IMG/VR virus record: IMGVR_UViG_3300048837_002292
Location: 1-34,810 of that record
Strand: one strand, 5' to 3'
Length of the DNA stretch: 34,810 nt
From: a virus
Shown piece by piece: positions 25,091-34,810 of this stretch; the stretch's first letter is position 1, and every line of letters starts with the position of its first letter. Under the pieces are notes generated by a model. The model saw nothing but the letters and a program-made list of their open reading frames with translations, did not search any database and was not told the DNA's origin. The translations under genes were made by a program, and so were the position numbers.

Positions 25091-25891
25091 TTGAACATAA
25101 GACAAGAGATAGCATTGGCCTTGAAGTGTCAGATGAATGTACCAGACTTTAAAGTGGTAAGCACCTTAGAAGATACACAAGCAATCGAACTATTACAAAC
25201 ACCAGGCTGGGAACAAAGAGAAGATGTAATAATACATGCGCCGGACTTAAACGTTACACAATATTACTATTTCAACGGAGAGCAGCTATTACATCCACTT
25301 ATCGGAATAGACGATCCTTACTTATTTGCCGGTAAACAAGGCGGTAGATTAGACGGAAATCTATTTACTCTATTCCCCGGAGAGCTTAAAATATCAAAGC
25401 ATACTCCCTTACTGATAGAGTATCTTACATCTATTAAATACAAGGGATTTATTAGTATTACCTTTAGCATTTTTAAAGACGGCTTGTACTATAACGCTAT
25501 CTCGCTGGGAATATCAGATGATTTCCTACAGAACGCTTTAAACCTATACAATCAATCTTTCGACTGGTTCATTGCAGACTTAGAAAATAATTCACTTCCT
25601 ACTCCTAAAGGAATATCAGTATCCGCAAGATTATATGGATCAACTTATTATGCCGATAACAATATGAATCTATTGTATAATTTTCCAGTTCCCGGCGCAT
25701 ACGAATTAGAAGATTGTTTTGCTATAAGCTACTGGCAAGAACGCTTCCATATCAAGGATGCATGGGCTGGGCTTTATAAACAGATTAACGATCCCATATA
25801 TGCACATAATGGAATATGCTATAATACGGACGGCGGCAAGCAAGCCCGTAAAGTATTCGATCTGCTGAAGAAACAGAAGCTAATCCTCTAA
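25091..25891 (+). CDS. Unknown protein, faint ATP-grasp/PurD-like resemblance
   Basis: 266 residues, TTG start after ATAGGAGACGAACC. It has its own operator-like promoter and its own terminator, so it is controlled apart from the late block. N-terminal region with LLQTPGWEQREDVIIHAPDL, middle FISITFSIFKDGLYYNAISL, and end GICYNTDGGKQARKVFDLLK. The middle and end recall the substrate-binding parts of PurD-type ATP-grasp proteins reported in some phages, but I see no clear ATP-binding residues. Treat that resemblance as weak. It may be a nucleotide-metabolism relic, a modification partner or a moron gene. Confidence 0.55.
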   Translation: MNIRQEIALALKCQMNVPDFKVVSTLEDTQAIELLQTPGWEQREDVIIHAPDLNVTQYYYFNGEQLLHPLIGIDDPYLFAGKQGGRLDGNLFTLFPGELKISKHTPLLIEYLTSIKYKGFISITFSIFKDGLYYNAISLGISDDFLQNALNLYNQSFDWFIADLENNSLPTPKGISVSARLYGSTYYADNNMNLLYNFPVPGAYELEDCFAISYWQERFHIKDAWAGLYKQINDPIYAHNGICYNTDGGKQARKVFDLLKKQKLIL

Positions 25892-25923
25892 CCTACTAAT
25901 AAAACCTCCCGTTCCACTTAAGG

Positions 25924-25957
25924 AAACCATCCAAAGCCATCCCTACCCGGATGGTTT
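25924..25957 (+). terminator. Rho-independent terminator
   Basis: AAACCATCC (25924-25932) pairs with GGATGGTTT (25949-25957), a 9-bp stem with a 16-base loop, followed by TCTGCG after a run of four T. It lies 33 bases after the stop at 25891 and closes the rightward transcript. Confidence 0.75.
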
Positions 25958-26024
25958 TCTGCGTTCTAAGCCCTATATAATATTGGAGAAACGGCTATAT
26001 GGAGGACGTTTTACGCCCGTAACG

Positions 26025-26040
26025 GTCTGTTAAAACAGAC
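26025..26040. repeat. GTCTGTT-AA-AACAGAC palindrome
   Basis: Seven-base perfect arms around two A. In RNA it forms a short tight hairpin; in DNA it could be a dimer binding site. It sits just downstream of a TATAAT and GGCTATA element. Confidence 0.6.
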
Positions 26041-26088
26041 TTAATCACTACAAAACGACAGGATTAACTTCGAGGAAATAGCTATCCT

Positions 26089-26128
26089 TATAGCCAATAC
26101 CCGACAATATTGGCGTAGAAGGGCTATA
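26089..26128 (+). ncRNA. Nested alternative hairpins, possible structured RNA
   Basis: GCTAT-CCTT-ATAGC (26081-26094), GCCAATA-8-TATTGGC (26093-26114) and TATAGCC/GGCTATA (26089-26095/26122-26128) overlap and compete, so at most some can form at once. This switch-like overlap, downstream of a TATAAT at 25976, suggests a structured or regulatory RNA. No known RNA family is recognised, so the call is tentative. Confidence 0.25.
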
Positions 26129-26468
26129 AAGTGGCTACAAAAGGGACATATCGGGTGCCTAACGGTGATATAGGTACCAGAAACGCCATAATTGGTACAG
26201 ATAATAGCTGCTAACTACTACAAGATAGGCCCCGAAATATGCCATTTTCTATTGTGATATATGTGAGTGCTTAATGGTATTTCCAGCTATTAGAGCAGGC
26301 ATCCACCCCCCTGGTACCCACCCCCTCTATGTGTCGTTATTGTCCATCGGAAGCACTCATGTGTTATCTATGCTATTCACCTATCCACGGGGGAATGTAT
26401 GCTCTGGATATCGACGGGAGAAATTCCGGGGGAATGGGGGAAGGATGTGCTTAACCGAATCAAGCTTT

Positions 26469-26568
26469 AGTATTTGCTAAAATACTGTATTAATTATATA
26501 TAGCTGTTCGGGATTGTTTCCAATGTAGGCACTATTAGCAAGAGTGTTTCAGTATTTGCTTAAATACT
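26469..26568. repeat. Twin AGTATTT palindromes
   Basis: Copy one AGTATTT-GCTA-AAATACT at 26469-26486 and copy two AGTATTT-GCTT-AAATACT at 26551-26568, 82 bases apart, nearly identical including the loop. Paired identical dyads of this size look like operators or replication-protein sites. Confidence 0.6.
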
Positions 26569-26656
26569 CAATTAGTCCGGTATGTAGCCACTTGTTACCA
26601 CTTGCGGATTGATTCCAGCTTGTAGGGGATTATTACCAGTTGCATATTAACCGGGA

Positions 26657-26674
26657 AACGAGTTTACACTCGTT
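26657..26674. repeat. AACGAGT-TTAC-ACTCGTT palindrome
   Basis: Seven perfect pairs with a four-base loop, about 100 bases beyond the end of the minus-strand repressor gene. May be a terminator stem for that gene (no T-run) or a protein-binding dyad. Confidence 0.5.
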
Positions 26675-26771
26675 CGGGTTAGTATCTGGTAACCATAAAA
26701 GAATAATAGTGTATTACCCTATGTAATAAGTATAAACTCCCGGCCTGCGTTTTTCACTTGTCCGGGGATTG

Positions 26772-26951
26772 TTACTTGTTCGCTTTATGCTGTTTAATAT
26801 AGTCCGTTAAGGCTTTACGCATAATATCTGAACGGTCAATATCAAAGCCGGTTTTCTCTGTTTCTTCAATACATATTTGATCTATCATATTAAGTATATC
26901 AGTATCAATTCTGACCGTTAATGATGATTTACTTTTTGCTGTTTCTGCCAT
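26772..26951 (-). CDS. Ribbon-helix-helix (CopG/Arc-type) repressor
   Basis: 59-residue protein on the minus strand, shorter than common gene-calling limits. After a Lys/Ser-rich start (MAETAKSKSS) comes the beta strand SLTVRIDTDI (alternating residues that read DNA), helix A (LNMIDQICIEETEKTG) and helix B (DRSDIMRKALTDYIKQHK) with the SDIMRKAL pattern of RHH dimers. Such proteins bind as dimers to short palindromic repeats. The ATG at 26951 follows GGGAGAATTTATTAA. It is the only gene between the noncoding region and a divergent rightward operon, and the spacer is full of ATTACAA elements, so it likely represses that operon and itself. Confidence 0.75.
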   Translation of the reverse strand: MAETAKSKSSLTVRIDTDILNMIDQICIEETEKTGFDIDRSDIMRKALTDYIKQHKANK

Positions 26952-27032
26952 TTAATAAATTCTCCCTGATACTGTAATTGTATTAATAATATCCCAAGAC
27001 AAGCAAAATTTCCATAAAAACACAAAAAAATA

Positions 27033-27119
27033 TTACTTTGTAATAAAATAATTACAAAACTACTTGACTTTATTTATATATTGTATTTAATTGATTACAG
27101 TTAGTTAAAACGATTACAA
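27033..27119. promoter_or_regulatory. Operator array and rightward promoter
   Basis: Half-sites ATTACAA/TTGTAAT cluster here: TTGTAAT (27038-27044) and ATTACAA (27051-27057) form a perfect dyad with six spacer bases, ATTACTTTGTAAT (27033-27044) is another small dyad, and GATTACA recurs at 27093 and 27112. Between them lies a sigma-70 promoter, TTGACT (27064-27069), 16 bases, TTTAAT (27086-27091), reading rightward. The array fits binding by the RHH repressor encoded at 26772-26951. Confidence 0.65.
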
Positions 27120-27138
27120 ATTTAAAAGGGGGGTAAAC

Positions 27139-27326: not shown

Positions 27327-29372
27327 ATGAACGTTAAACAAATAGTAATTGAAAGAATTCAAGAAGAACTTAAGGCCGGGCGCGTACCTTGGCAAAGTCC
27401 CTATCTAAAAGGGAAAGATGGACAGACTAAATGTAATTTTATATCCGGGCATAGTTACCGGGGAACTAATGAATTGTTACTCGCTTATAATCCAGATACT
27501 TACTATATGACTTTCCGACAAGCTCAAGAGATAGGCGCACAGATTAAAAAGGGCGCAAAAAGTGAAATAGTTACTTTCTGGAAAATGCTTGAAACTACCG
27601 ACACAAGCACAGGCGAGAAGAAGACAGTTCCGATCCTTAACTATTACCGTGTTTTCGGAGTCTCACAGGTAGACTTTACCGGAGTAGAAGAAAAGTATCA
27701 GCATTATATTAATAAACGTCAAGCAGATATAAAACATAATCCTTTCATAAATGACATTGAACAGTTTCTATATTATACACAAGCTACAATTAAGCATGAA
27801 AGAAAGGGAATAGCTTTTTATAGTCCTACACTTGATTATATTAATATGCCCCCGATCAATACTTTTGAAAATAGCACTTCATATTATGAAACACTATTTC
27901 ACGAGTTAACACACTGGACAGGGTACGAGTCAAGAAACAATAGATTACCGTCTGTTATACATAAAAGAAGTGAAGAATACAGCAAGGAAGAATTAATTGC
28001 TGAGCTGGGAAGTTGTTTCCTAAGTGCTGAATTTAACTTGAAAGTGAATTATAAAAACTCAGCTTCTTATATAGCTTCATGGAGTCAGTTTCTAAAGGAT
28101 AATCAAAACGCTTTATTTTCAGCAAGTACGGAAGCGAGTAAAGCAGTTGAATATCTTAAAGAAATTACTGTTAAGAATATGGAAGCTATCCCGGCACCAG
28201 CGGAAACAGAAGTCACGGAAGCCCCGGAAGTAATAGCGGAACCAGTTACAGAAGTTAAACCAGTTAAAAAACCAAAGTCACCAAAGAAGACAAAGCCGGT
28301 TAAAGAAGAAGTTAAGCCGGAACCGGAACCAGTACAAGTCCCGGAAATAAAAGAGCCTGTATCCGGTCAGATACAAGCTGTCAATAAGTCTTTAAATGTC
28401 GCTCTCTTGAAAAGATACATAACAGACTCAACTATACTTTTAGAAGTCTCACAGAATGAAGTCAAGTATTTTACACATGATAATACAGTTATAATATTTG
28501 CTGTTAAAGTGGATACTGACAAGCCTTATGTAATAGCTGTTAATCCTATAAGAACAAACTTAAAGAAGTGTAAAGGTCAGATACTTTTCAGGGATAATAA
28601 GATTATTACTGATTCTATTATAGTAAACTTTGAACCTATCCCGGAAGATGAAAAACTATTAATCCCTGTTAAAGTACCTGATACAGATTATGTGTCAGGG
28701 CTTTATTCAGCAGTTAAGAAAGTAATTCATGCTTCAGCTACTGACAATATAAAGCCGGTCTTTCATTCAGTATGCTTTACAGATAATAGTATTGTTGCTA
28801 CTGATTCAAGGCGTTTAGCGTTAACAGAATTTCATCTTTTTAATAGTGTTGCTGATATAATAGTTGATAGGTCAGTGATTGACATTGCAATAAAAGATAA
28901 ACTGGATTATATCAATGTTGTTACACTAAAAGAAAAAGTAGACACTGCTTTAATAATAGATATTCATTATGTTGTAATAACTAACCGTCAAGACATAACA
29001 ATAATATCTAAAGAAGTCCCCGGACAATTCCCTAACTTCATACAGATTATACCAAGTAAGAAAAGTATAGTTCAGACAGTAAAATTCAATCCGGCAAGCC
29101 TTATGCCATTCTTACAATTCAAGAAAGGTACAGTTATATTCAATGGTGATACTTTAACACATAAGGACACTGGACACTCAATTAAAACTCCATTTCATTC
29201 TACTTTAGAAATAGGTGTTAATGCTGAATTCCTTAAGGACTGTTTAAAGGACAAGAAAGAAGTATCAATGTCTTTCACTGGCGTAATGTCGCCCTTTATG
29301 ATTAAGGACGGGGATTTAACAAACATTATAATGCCTATTCAGTTGAAGAAGAAAGAAGAGCAAGCCGCATAA
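27327..29372 (+). CDS. ArdC-type anti-restriction protein fused to a sliding-clamp-like domain
   Basis: 681 residues in three parts. About 1-120 is an ArdC N-terminal single-strand DNA-binding domain (VPWQSPYLKG, SYRGTNELLL, MTFRQAQEIGAQIKKGAKSE). About 180-285 is a zinc metallopeptidase-like domain with HELTH at 192-196 and the later EELIAELGSCFL; proteins of this class protect incoming DNA from restriction. A Pro/Lys/Glu linker (290-345) follows. About 350-675 resembles the bacterial DNA polymerase III beta clamp: SVCFTDNSIVATDSRRLALT near 480-499, VPGQFPNFIQIIPS near 563-576, and a C-terminal SPFMIKDGDL...NIIMPIQL near 654-672. All three match the order and spacing of clamp domains 2 and 3. 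I know no phage gene joining these. Site AGAAGGAGTTACACCC precedes the ATG. Confidence 0.8.
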   Translation: MNVKQIVIERIQEELKAGRVPWQSPYLKGKDGQTKCNFISGHSYRGTNELLLAYNPDTYYMTFRQAQEIGAQIKKGAKSEIVTFWKMLETTDTSTGEKKTVPILNYYRVFGVSQVDFTGVEEKYQHYINKRQADIKHNPFINDIEQFLYYTQATIKHERKGIAFYSPTLDYINMPPINTFENSTSYYETLFHELTHWTGYESRNNRLPSVIHKRSEEYSKEELIAELGSCFLSAEFNLKVNYKNSASYIASWSQFLKDNQNALFSASTEASKAVEYLKEITVKNMEAIPAPAETEVTEAPEVIAEPVTEVKPVKKPKSPKKTKPVKEEVKPEPEPVQVPEIKEPVSGQIQAVNKSLNVALLKRYITDSTILLEVSQNEVKYFTHDNTVIIFAVKVDTDKPYVIAVNPIRTNLKKCKGQILFRDNKIITDSIIVNFEPIPEDEKLLIPVKVPDTDYVSGLYSAVKKVIHASATDNIKPVFHSVCFTDNSIVATDSRRLALTEFHLFNSVADIIVDRSVIDIAIKDKLDYINVVTLKEKVDTALIIDIHYVVITNRQDITIISKEVPGQFPNFIQIIPSKKSIVQTVKFNPASLMPFLQFKKGTVIFNGDTLTHKDTGHSIKTPFHSTLEIGVNAEFLKDCLKDKKEVSMSFTGVMSPFMIKDGDLTNIIMPIQLKKKEEQAA

Positions 29373-31814: not shown

Positions 31815-32852
31815 TTAATCAACGAAAACTTTATAATAGTAAGTACCATCAGTACCAGCACCCTCTAATTCACAATTTACAACATATGTTCTACCCTTAT
31901 ATTCATAAGAACCTATTAATTTATAACGGAGATTATTACCATAATCATTCTTCACAAAATCAGAAGAGGTTACCTTGAAATTTAATCTACCTACTAATTT
32001 ATCTTTTATTTCATGTAGATAACCACCGTACTTAATAAAGCTTTCTATTTTGCTTTTCACAGCTATTCTATCGGCAGCTTCTACTGCATCTTGCTTATCT
32101 TTAGCTTTTGCAACTGCTAATGAAATATTATAAGCTTTTATAATCCTCGCATCTGTTACTTTTGTTTTATCAATATCTTTTCTGAGATCAACTGCATCTA
32201 ATGCAAGGGTTATCTGTTGAGCTAATTTTGATAACTCATCGTAGGTCTTTTTGAAATTACCACCAAAATACTTTGTGTCATTTTCAGTGCTGACTCCATT
32301 AATTTTAAAGTAATTAGCATCGGGAACAGAAACACTAACAATTCCACCTTTTGCAATACTTTGTGCTTTTTGAAGATTAAGTTCTTCTAATGCGGCATTT
32401 ACATCAGCAAGGGATTTTATAAGTTTACTGCCATATACCGTAGCAGCGTTTTGTGTTGGAGTATTATGTATAATATAATCATAAGATATATAACCACCTA
32501 TCAGTATACCTGCGACACCAATAGTGATTGCTGCATGTTTTGGATATTTTCTTATAAGACGAATGATACCAGTAATCAATGCAACAACAGACGATATAAG
32601 ACCAACATTCGCTGTTTCTCCGTTTGTGTTAGCTTTAGCATATGGACTAACTGGATTAGGATTTATAGTTTTGCAGTAGGGGCACTTACCTGCATTTTTA
32701 TAGTAAGATTTACCACAACTTGCACAAATTGTATTACTACCAGTTGGTTGTACAGGTGGAGTTACTTTAGCTACTTTGAAACCACAATGTGGACAGGCTT
32801 CTAAAGTATCAGACATTTCTTTTTGACATTCTTTACATTTAATCAAAGCCAT
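31815..32852 (-). CDS. Zinc-ribbon membrane protein, minus strand
   Basis: 345 residues on the opposite strand to neighbours. N-terminus has two zinc ribbons (CKEC...CPHC at about 6-23, CASC...CPYC at about 43-59). Two membrane spans follow near 84-100 and 107-128. The long C-terminal domain (about 140-345) is charged and ends YEYKGRTYVVNCELEG and GTYYYKVFVD. This zinc-ribbon-then-membrane layout is common in bacterial stress and envelope proteins. As an isolated minus-strand gene it fits a lysogenic-conversion or exclusion gene. The start has AAAGGGGGTAAATAT. No known name. Confidence 0.6.
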   Translation of the reverse strand: MALIKCKECQKEMSDTLEACPHCGFKVAKVTPPVQPTGSNTICASCGKSYYKNAGKCPYCKTINPNPVSPYAKANTNGETANVGLISSVVALITGIIRLIRKYPKHAAITIGVAGILIGGYISYDYIIHNTPTQNAATVYGSKLIKSLADVNAALEELNLQKAQSIAKGGIVSVSVPDANYFKINGVSTENDTKYFGGNFKKTYDELSKLAQQITLALDAVDLRKDIDKTKVTDARIIKAYNISLAVAKAKDKQDAVEAADRIAVKSKIESFIKYGGYLHEIKDKLVGRLNFKVTSSDFVKNDYGNNLRYKLIGSYEYKGRTYVVNCELEGAGTDGTYYYKVFVD

Positions 32853-33217: not shown

Positions 33218-34810
33218 ATGAATGTTGCAATATATTGCCGGGTAAGTACGGATCAACAGCTTAGAGATGAAGGCAGTCTTAAGAATCAGGAACAGGCCTG
33301 CCGGGCTTATGTTGATTATAAATACAAGGATAAGTCCCCGAAAGTTGAACTATATGTAGATGAAGCCATATCCGCTAAGAATATTACCGATCGCCCATCT
33401 ATGCAAAGGCTTATTAAAGATATACATAACGATAAAGTAAATGCAGTTATAATAAATAAGTTAGACCGGGCCTTCCGTAATGTAATAGATACACTTGATT
33501 TCGTAAAACTAACTTCTCATAAGAATATAATATTCCACTCTTTGAAAGAAGACATCGATACAAAATCTGCTTCCGGTAAGATGTTCCTTACTGTACTTGC
33601 TGCACTTGCTGAAATGGAAAGGGAACAAACCAGTGAGAGATTAAAGTTCTCAGTCCGGGAGAAGGCAAAGCGTGGTATTAGGAGTTCGGGGAATGTTCCT
33701 TATGGATACAGACTAAGACCCGGCGGTGTAATAGAAGATGTTCCGGCTGAACAGGAAGTAGTCCGAAAGATGTTTGAATTATACTTCGAGACTGGCAGTT
33801 TTTCTGTTGTCCGGGATCGTATTAATGCATTAGGGCACACACATACCGACCGCAGACAAGGCGGAGAAAGGGATGAAGGTAAATTTATAGCTCAAACTAT
33901 TAATAACCTGATCCGTAATAAATTTTATATCAATATATTAGAATGTAATAAAGCGAATGTTTATTTAGATCAAAGTACTCTCCCGGAAGATAAAAGATAT
34001 TATACTATGCCGGGATCGTGGAATCCATGTGTTGACGAAGAACTGTTCTACAAATGCCAGGCTATAGCAGATAAGAATAAAGAATCCAGGCATAACAGTA
34101 TTACCGTATCAGAGATAACACCTTTAATATTCAGCGGTTTAATCTTTTGTGATTGTGGTAAACAGATGGTAGGACATACATCCCGGCGGCCTAAGTCTGT
34201 AAAGAAATACGGAACTGGTGAGAAGTGGATGTACACTTATTATCGATGTAAGCCATGTAAACGACTTCTTAAATCAGCTAAACTTGAAGAAGTTATAGAT
34301 AAACTGGCGGACGATCTACTTGATAAGGATAATACTATCTTAAAAGATGCTTATAGGAATTATGAAGAAGAGATGCAAGCATATCATAAATATAACGAAG
34401 ACCAGTTAGTAAAGACGATTAAGAATCTGAATAAAGCGACTAAAGAAAAAGAGAAGATAATAAATGTTCTTACTAAAATAGATGATCCGGGAACTATAGA
34501 ACAGCTTAATACTAAGTTGAAAGAGTTATCAAAATTAATCACTGGATTCAATAACGGGATAGAGTACTTAAACAGTAGTAAAGAAAACAAGTTAGCAATA
34601 GATATATTCTCAGACTTCGTTAAAATGCGAGTAGCAGAAAAAAGCGACTTTAAAAATCTATCTGCTAAAGATAAGAAACAAGTAGTTAATGCCCTATTCT
34701 CCCGGATCACAGTTAAAGAAGACCGGGTAGAAGCGGAACTTAAGACATCAGATGTAATATCATTACAGTTTGGCCAGAAGAAAGCCCTGTCAGGACAGAT
34801 GGGAGGATGA
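33218..34810 (+). CDS. Large serine recombinase (integrase)
   Basis: 530-residue serine integrase that joins phage and host DNA at att sites. Catalytic domain about 1-150 with YCRVSTDQQ and nucleophile Ser10, INKLDRAFRN near 87-96, and the FLTVLAALAEMEREQTSERL helix near 125-145. Recombinase domain follows about 160-290 (VPYGYRLRPGGVIEDVPAEQ). A zinc ribbon (CDCGKQ near 311-316, CKPCKR near 344-349) and a coiled coil about 370-460 mark the C-terminus. Length and all parts look intact. The gene ends exactly at the last base of the window, so the flanking att site, usually next to int, is not visible. A ribosome site AAAGGGG precedes the ATG. Confidence 0.95.
   Translation: MNVAIYCRVSTDQQLRDEGSLKNQEQACRAYVDYKYKDKSPKVELYVDEAISAKNITDRPSMQRLIKDIHNDKVNAVIINKLDRAFRNVIDTLDFVKLTSHKNIIFHSLKEDIDTKSASGKMFLTVLAALAEMEREQTSERLKFSVREKAKRGIRSSGNVPYGYRLRPGGVIEDVPAEQEVVRKMFELYFETGSFSVVRDRINALGHTHTDRRQGGERDEGKFIAQTINNLIRNKFYINILECNKANVYLDQSTLPEDKRYYTMPGSWNPCVDEELFYKCQAIADKNKESRHNSITVSEITPLIFSGLIFCDCGKQMVGHTSRRPKSVKKYGTGEKWMYTYYRCKPCKRLLKSAKLEEVIDKLADDLLDKDNTILKDAYRNYEEEMQAYHKYNEDQLVKTIKNLNKATKEKEKIINVLTKIDDPGTIEQLNTKLKELSKLITGFNNGIEYLNSSKENKLAIDIFSDFVKMRVAEKSDFKNLSAKDKKQVVNALFSRITVKEDRVEAELKTSDVISLQFGQKKALSGQMGG

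Follow-up and report, generated by a model that had tools for sequence, protein, structure and literature searches.

The gene-free region at positions 25892-26771 of the window (the whole 34,810-nucleotide stretch of viral DNA analysed here) is best explained, with a probability of roughly 0.55, as the point at which two opposing transcription units of a prophage converge and as a slot for moron cargo, which carries a conserved intergenic element and from which, in the window, protein cargo is absent. The preliminary description had held that nothing in the neighbouring genes explains the dense structure of this region; the structure is real, whereas the statement on the neighbours requires correction, as the region is a convergence point and relatives hold variable cargo there.

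As read from its sequence, the window is a prophage that extends from attL to attR within a spirochaete ssb gene. Positions 1-247 correspond to the 5' part of ssb, the encoded protein being 85% identical to that of the MAG HGW-Spirochaetae-5. The 12-base att core, GTCAGGACAGAT, is found at 236-247 and is repeated at 34789-34800, where ssb continues with its following codons (DRWED) in a different frame, judged with the uninterrupted L043 gene as guide. A serine integrase at 33218-34810 was assigned as the enzyme inserting the prophage. The last codons and the stop of its ORF are host ssb DNA (window end, 34789-34810), and its C-terminus would consequently change upon excision. A GIY-YIG-type homing endonuclease is encoded close to the prophage's left end, at 349-762.

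The slot and its surroundings comprise the following features:
25892-26771, no strand assigned: gene-free slot separating the late operon from the convergent ribbon-helix-helix (RHH) gene, from the ORF map, coding score and dyad count
25091-25891, + strand: conserved 266-aa protein, encoded last in the rightward late operon and used as synteny anchor, from the ORF map and homology searches
26772-26951, - strand: 59-aa RHH protein, conserved neighbour (Pfam RHH_3, E 5.6e-4, just under the curated cutoff)
26952-27138, no strand assigned: divergent promoter region from the RHH gene to the first rightward early gene, a candidate RHH operator

The 880 bases are bounded exactly by two facing stops, one ending the rightward ORF 25091-25891 and the other the leftward ORF 26772-26951. 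By our reading of which ORFs are genes, those of the window run mostly rightward, the exceptions being 26772-26951 and 31815-32852. The longest ORF within the region has 68 aa (26274-26480), and the five short frames compared with Pfam matched nothing. The hexamer coding score is near the shuffle range (best 0.353 vs a 95% shuffle value of 0.344), while the gene at 31815-32852, excluded from training, scored 0.50-0.84. Rfam returned no family at gathering score over the whole window and only chance matches on the region at E ≤ 10; a tRNA search of the window found none, and promoter and terminator scans of the slot gave nothing beyond chance. Two candidates were set aside: a 40-codon open frame at 26045-26164, protein-like by eye, matched nothing, and a purine-rich G-run that resembled a ribosome site by eye, with short ORFs after it, was dropped because the peptides were dissimilar. 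In combination, the exact convergent-gene limits and the absence of a coding signal and of Pfam, Rfam and tRNA matches bear out the original view of the region as noncoding.

Homologs of the 59-aa RHH protein are 32-36% identical, and those of the related prophages L060 and L052 exceed the cutoff for Pfam RHH_1; the RHH profile was not found in 10 virus records, most of which are fragments. The adjoining promoter region contains 6 GTAAT/ATTAC words in 187 bases vs 0.75 expected from the window frequency, an expectation that overstates the excess because this stretch is AT-rich. At 27327-29372, a single ORF combines two halves, the N-terminal one of the ArdC antirestriction type and the other a sliding clamp (DNA polymerase III beta C-terminal).

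Related prophages were located through the terminase in the spirochaete genomes G034 and G221 (48%; 50% and 35%), a match at E ≤ 1e-30 being present in 4 of 392 spirochaete genomes. The 266-aa protein occurs in G034, at two places in G221 and, as a weak match, in G060 (3/392 genomes), as well as in 2 of the 10 virus records tried, which were chosen from 79 loci and comprised the five closest by terminase and five more. The order 266-aa gene, slot, convergent RHH gene is kept in L052, L060 and L061, three prophages from two spirochaete genomes, with slot lengths of 3090, about 2230 and 623 bases, respectively; in L166 the 266-aa gene is followed by a response regulator and other cargo until the contig ends. 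The cargo found in these relatives is as follows:
L052: PAS/HisKA_2 kinase and a 142-aa ORF
L060: response regulator and ORFs of 134 and 271 aa
L061: cysteine-rich 69-aa ORF
L166: response regulator and ORFs of 117 and 220 aa

Thus the same flanking phage genes enclose variable non-phage genes in L052, L060, L061 and L166, vs the window, where the slot holds no protein cargo (ORFs of at most 68 aa, no domain and no coding signal). The full slot is represented by four prophages including the window. The other three come from two genomes, and since one or both of these are MAGs, misassembly is possible. Cargo orientation is mixed, in part along the RHH gene and in part along the late genes: two of the L060 cargo ORFs and the L166 regulator are oriented opposite to leftward, and the cargo is consequently not always leftward. 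In L061, a site resembling an intrinsic terminator (9-bp stem and T-run) ends a leftward unit of RHH gene, noncoding element and 69-aa ORF; promoter scans on the relatives remained at chance level. Imperfect inverted repeats lie beside the cargo in L052 (15690-15770) and L166 (1340-1400), and may resemble integron attC sites. At the DNA level, phage records, plasmids and the 392 spirochaete genomes contained no relatives of the window region beyond chance matches of 23-31 nt, seen in 7/392 spirochaete genomes at E ≤ 0.01 per genome.

A noncoding element of about 135 nt adjoining the RHH gene is common to L052, L060 and L061. It starts AT-rich and continues with a C-run and a G-run, set apart by a short loop, and with GGGTGAGCTTC, which all three copies have; words resembling TGTNTGGGCTTAT are present in two of the three. 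Pairwise local scores exceeded those of all 200 shuffles in each comparison (L052-L060, 107 vs 33 ± 4; L060-L061, 71 vs 26 ± 3; L052-L061, 56 vs 32 ± 5). The corresponding features of the window are:
26244-26343, + strand (window orientation): probable diverged element copy, left arm and C-run, from the local score with L052
26306-26325, + strand: C-runs, candidate 5' arm of a long C/G hairpin
26389-26454, + strand: G-runs ending GGGGGAAGGATGTGCTT, candidate 3' arm (compare GGGGGGAAGATGTGGGTGAGCTT in L052)

The opposing C-runs and the four G-runs of three or more noted originally were both located, the former at 26306-26311, 26317-26319 and 26321-26325, the latter at 26389-26393, 26416-26418, 26428-26432 and 26436-26440. 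Against L052, the window scored 49 over 26244-26343 (shuffles 31 ± 4, 0/200). When the L052 element was compared with the whole window, this score was reached at the syntenic place only (next best 32), and 2002 unrelated tiles gave a maximum of 35. The comparisons with L060 and L061 were not significant, 53/200 and 44/200 shuffles reaching the score. A left-half HMM placed its top match at 26257-26312 (E 0.26), and a covariance model and a full-length HMM, both built without the window, did not detect the window copy. From sequence comparison, we regard the window copy as probably homologous but strongly diverged, with an insertion between the C-run and the G-runs. The C/G helix is no stabler than its composition predicts, and folding of the core does not surpass that of shuffles.

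The element matched no Rfam family, and an RNA model run over 46 genomes of the class found only its own three source sequences. The pattern GGNNAGANGNGGGTGAGCTTC occurred at five places in viral contigs, which look unrelated. With a looser pattern, the 46 genomes yielded the three known prophages at 0 mismatches and a further 12 places that differed at 2 positions; the latter were not taken as relatives, eight of them being a genome-wide palindromic repeat of the spirochaete genome G132. These eight interspersed copies (L064, L069, L071-L076), of the form CCCTCCCTTGATGGGAGGGG..GGGAGGGTGA, resemble the element in composition only. Neither the slot nor the element was found described in open-licence PubMed Central.

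Outside the element, the slot is rich in inverted repeats, the main ones being:
25924-25957, no strand assigned: 9-bp hairpin with a 16-nt loop, then TTTT on the + strand, just past the last late gene
25985-26243, no strand assigned: left flank found in the window only, with most of the excess dyads and the alternative TATAGCC pairings
26469-26486, no strand assigned: first twin palindrome, arms AGTATTT and AAATACT, loop GCTA
26551-26568, no strand assigned: second twin palindrome, same arms, loop GCTT
26633-26692, no strand assigned: 60-nt imperfect hairpin, outer arms TTACCAG and CTGGTAA, inner arms AACGAGT and ACTCGTT, loop TTAC, predicted on both strands

The high density of palindromes was confirmed against both shuffles and tiles. 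Dyads were counted as perfect inverted repeats whose arms have 6 or more bases and whose loops have 3-20. The region contains 12 of them vs 4.18 ± 2.03 in dinucleotide shuffles, and 0/300 shuffles and 0/39 window tiles of 880 bases reach 12. The excess is concentrated in the left part (25892-26243, 7 vs 1.5 expected, 1/200 shuffles), where dyads lie at 26025-26040, 26041-26067, 26093-26114 and 26174-26198; it is weak in the right part (26466-26771, 4 vs 1.5, 14/200) and absent from the middle with its C/G-runs (1 vs 1.0). Similarly, the slots of L052 (10 vs 4.6, 4/200 shuffles) and L061 (8 vs 2.0, 0/200) show an excess, while that of L060 shows no clear one (3 vs 1.8, 46/200). The twin AGTATTT palindromes, AGTATTTGCTAAAATACT and AGTATTTGCTTAAATACT, are indeed 82 bases apart, with identical arms; their loops differ by one base. 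No further copies within 4 mismatches exist elsewhere in the window, and the palindrome pattern hit five records among viral contigs that shared only the palindrome or one extra 20-nt match, and were attributed to chance. The alternative hairpins likewise proved to be present as competing pairings: TATAGCC (26089-26095) is able to pair with GGCTATA either downstream or upstream, and GCCAATA, which overlaps TATAGCC by GCC, has its own partner in TATTGGC. The hairpin at 25924-25957 is probably the terminator of the late operon; the terminator scan, which admits loops of 3-8 only, did not flag it.

These structures invite a reading of the slot as a free-standing gene, on either strand, for a structured noncoding RNA in the style of the large phage RNAs or of prophage regulatory RNAs, which we consider possible and on balance unlikely. 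In its favour, both strands of 25960-26775 fold moderately better than their shuffles (z -2.35 on + and -3.41 on -, 0/20 shuffles each), windows of 120 nt go down to z -3.4, the background being -0.27 ± 1.01 (120 random windows of the same genome), and the TATAGCC segment offers its alternative pairings. The left and right flanks fold moderately on either strand, with z between -2.2 and -2.6 (left flank 25985-26244, -2.41 on + and -2.56 on -), and the middle folds no better than shuffles. However, DNA dyads would look the same as RNA and give similar folding on both strands. Rfam matches above chance and a promoter above chance were both lacking, DNA searches of collections and genomes gave no homolog for covariation, and the window's own hairpins are not conserved in any relative examined. 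The initial proposal of a structured RNA may still be right, given the moderately better folding, though neither a family match nor preservation of the hairpins in relatives accompanies it.

Neutral or decaying DNA left after cargo loss, with hairpins contributed by terminators and chance, would fit the relatives, which hold genes exactly in this slot, as well as the window-only flanks and the lack of any surviving ORF or domain. We nevertheless regard it as quite doubtful: the dyad count lies above 300/300 shuffles and the excess returns in 2/3 relatives, and tblastx with the relatives' cargo genes found no trace of them in the window region. A phage replication origin, with an initiator or host proteins binding to the repeats and hairpins, appears very unlikely. 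The convergence point lies near the divergent early promoters on the phage map, perfect dyads and twin palindromes are present, and in L060 an exact TTATCCACA stands beside the shared element, but this DnaA box is missing from L052, L061 and the window and was dropped as a candidate. The region itself has no exact DnaA box and one box with 1 mismatch, such boxes are at chance level in the window (50 vs 47 ± 7), and both a GC-skew turn at the site and high-identity iterons are absent; the suggestion of an origin is thus unsupported. Some partition proteins have an RHH fold, and the palindromes together with the RHH protein next door could be read as an attachment or partition site. This is highly improbable. 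The att core maps to host ssb at both window ends, so that the region is not the attachment site and that earlier reading is refuted. As to partition, no ParA- or ParM-like NTPase partner was present among the window proteins scanned (several small ORFs lay outside the scan), and the RHH protein alone is insufficient for a partition system.

The convergence point with its cargo slot resembles the rexAB locus of lambda and the bstA locus of BTP1, where variable host-benefit genes likewise stand beside a regulator gene; the cargo of L052, L060 and L061 includes a gene in RHH orientation. According to PMC7067206, bstA is transcribed from the cI promoter and its region is a common moron site. Unlike these loci, the window group has an RHH protein in place of a CI-type repressor and a conserved noncoding element between regulator and cargo, and the window lacks protein cargo. 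The same source describes STnc6030, an antisense RNA of prophage BTP1 that acts in superinfection exclusion; it would set a precedent for an accessory function of a prophage being exerted by a noncoding RNA. ROOL and GOLLD RNAs, which according to PMC12286853 form large noncoding stretches in phages and prophages, often near tRNA islands, are similar in that the window region is also a large noncoding stretch, and different in that the window has neither an Rfam model match nor a tRNA. Intrinsic terminators of convergent operons share with the slot the placement of hairpins between opposing units, e.g. 25924-25957; in contrast to such terminators, the conserved C/G-run element has no T-run after its arm on either strand.

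At the region, the rightward late operon of this spirochaete prophage converges with the leftward RHH gene. We propose that the RHH protein may regulate the early promoter and help to hold lysogeny. Cargo beyond the element could be read leftward with the RHH gene in the lysogen, by analogy with rex and bstA downstream of the repressor. Between the opposing units, the element and its surrounding hairpins would mark a transcription boundary or serve in processing or as a leader. What remains of the slot in the window is the diverged element and about 560 nt of window-only, dyad-rich sequence, which may be either an untranslated RNA extending the RHH transcript or a remnant of cargo since lost; the flanks may also hold operators. 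A more specific form, in which the RHH transcript has a long, structured 3' extension whose alternative hairpins are built around the conserved element, and which acts as an RNA moron on the host or on superinfecting phages, is rather doubtful.

The comparison with relatives turns what seemed an isolated oddity into the variable slot of a small phage group. Cargo slots reveal the functions that prophages lend to their hosts, and in this little-studied group of spirochaete prophages it is two-component signalling genes that appear to be swapped in and out beside a small regulator, next to which an undescribed noncoding element is kept. If the gene-free slot does make an RNA, the window would provide a case of an RNA moron.
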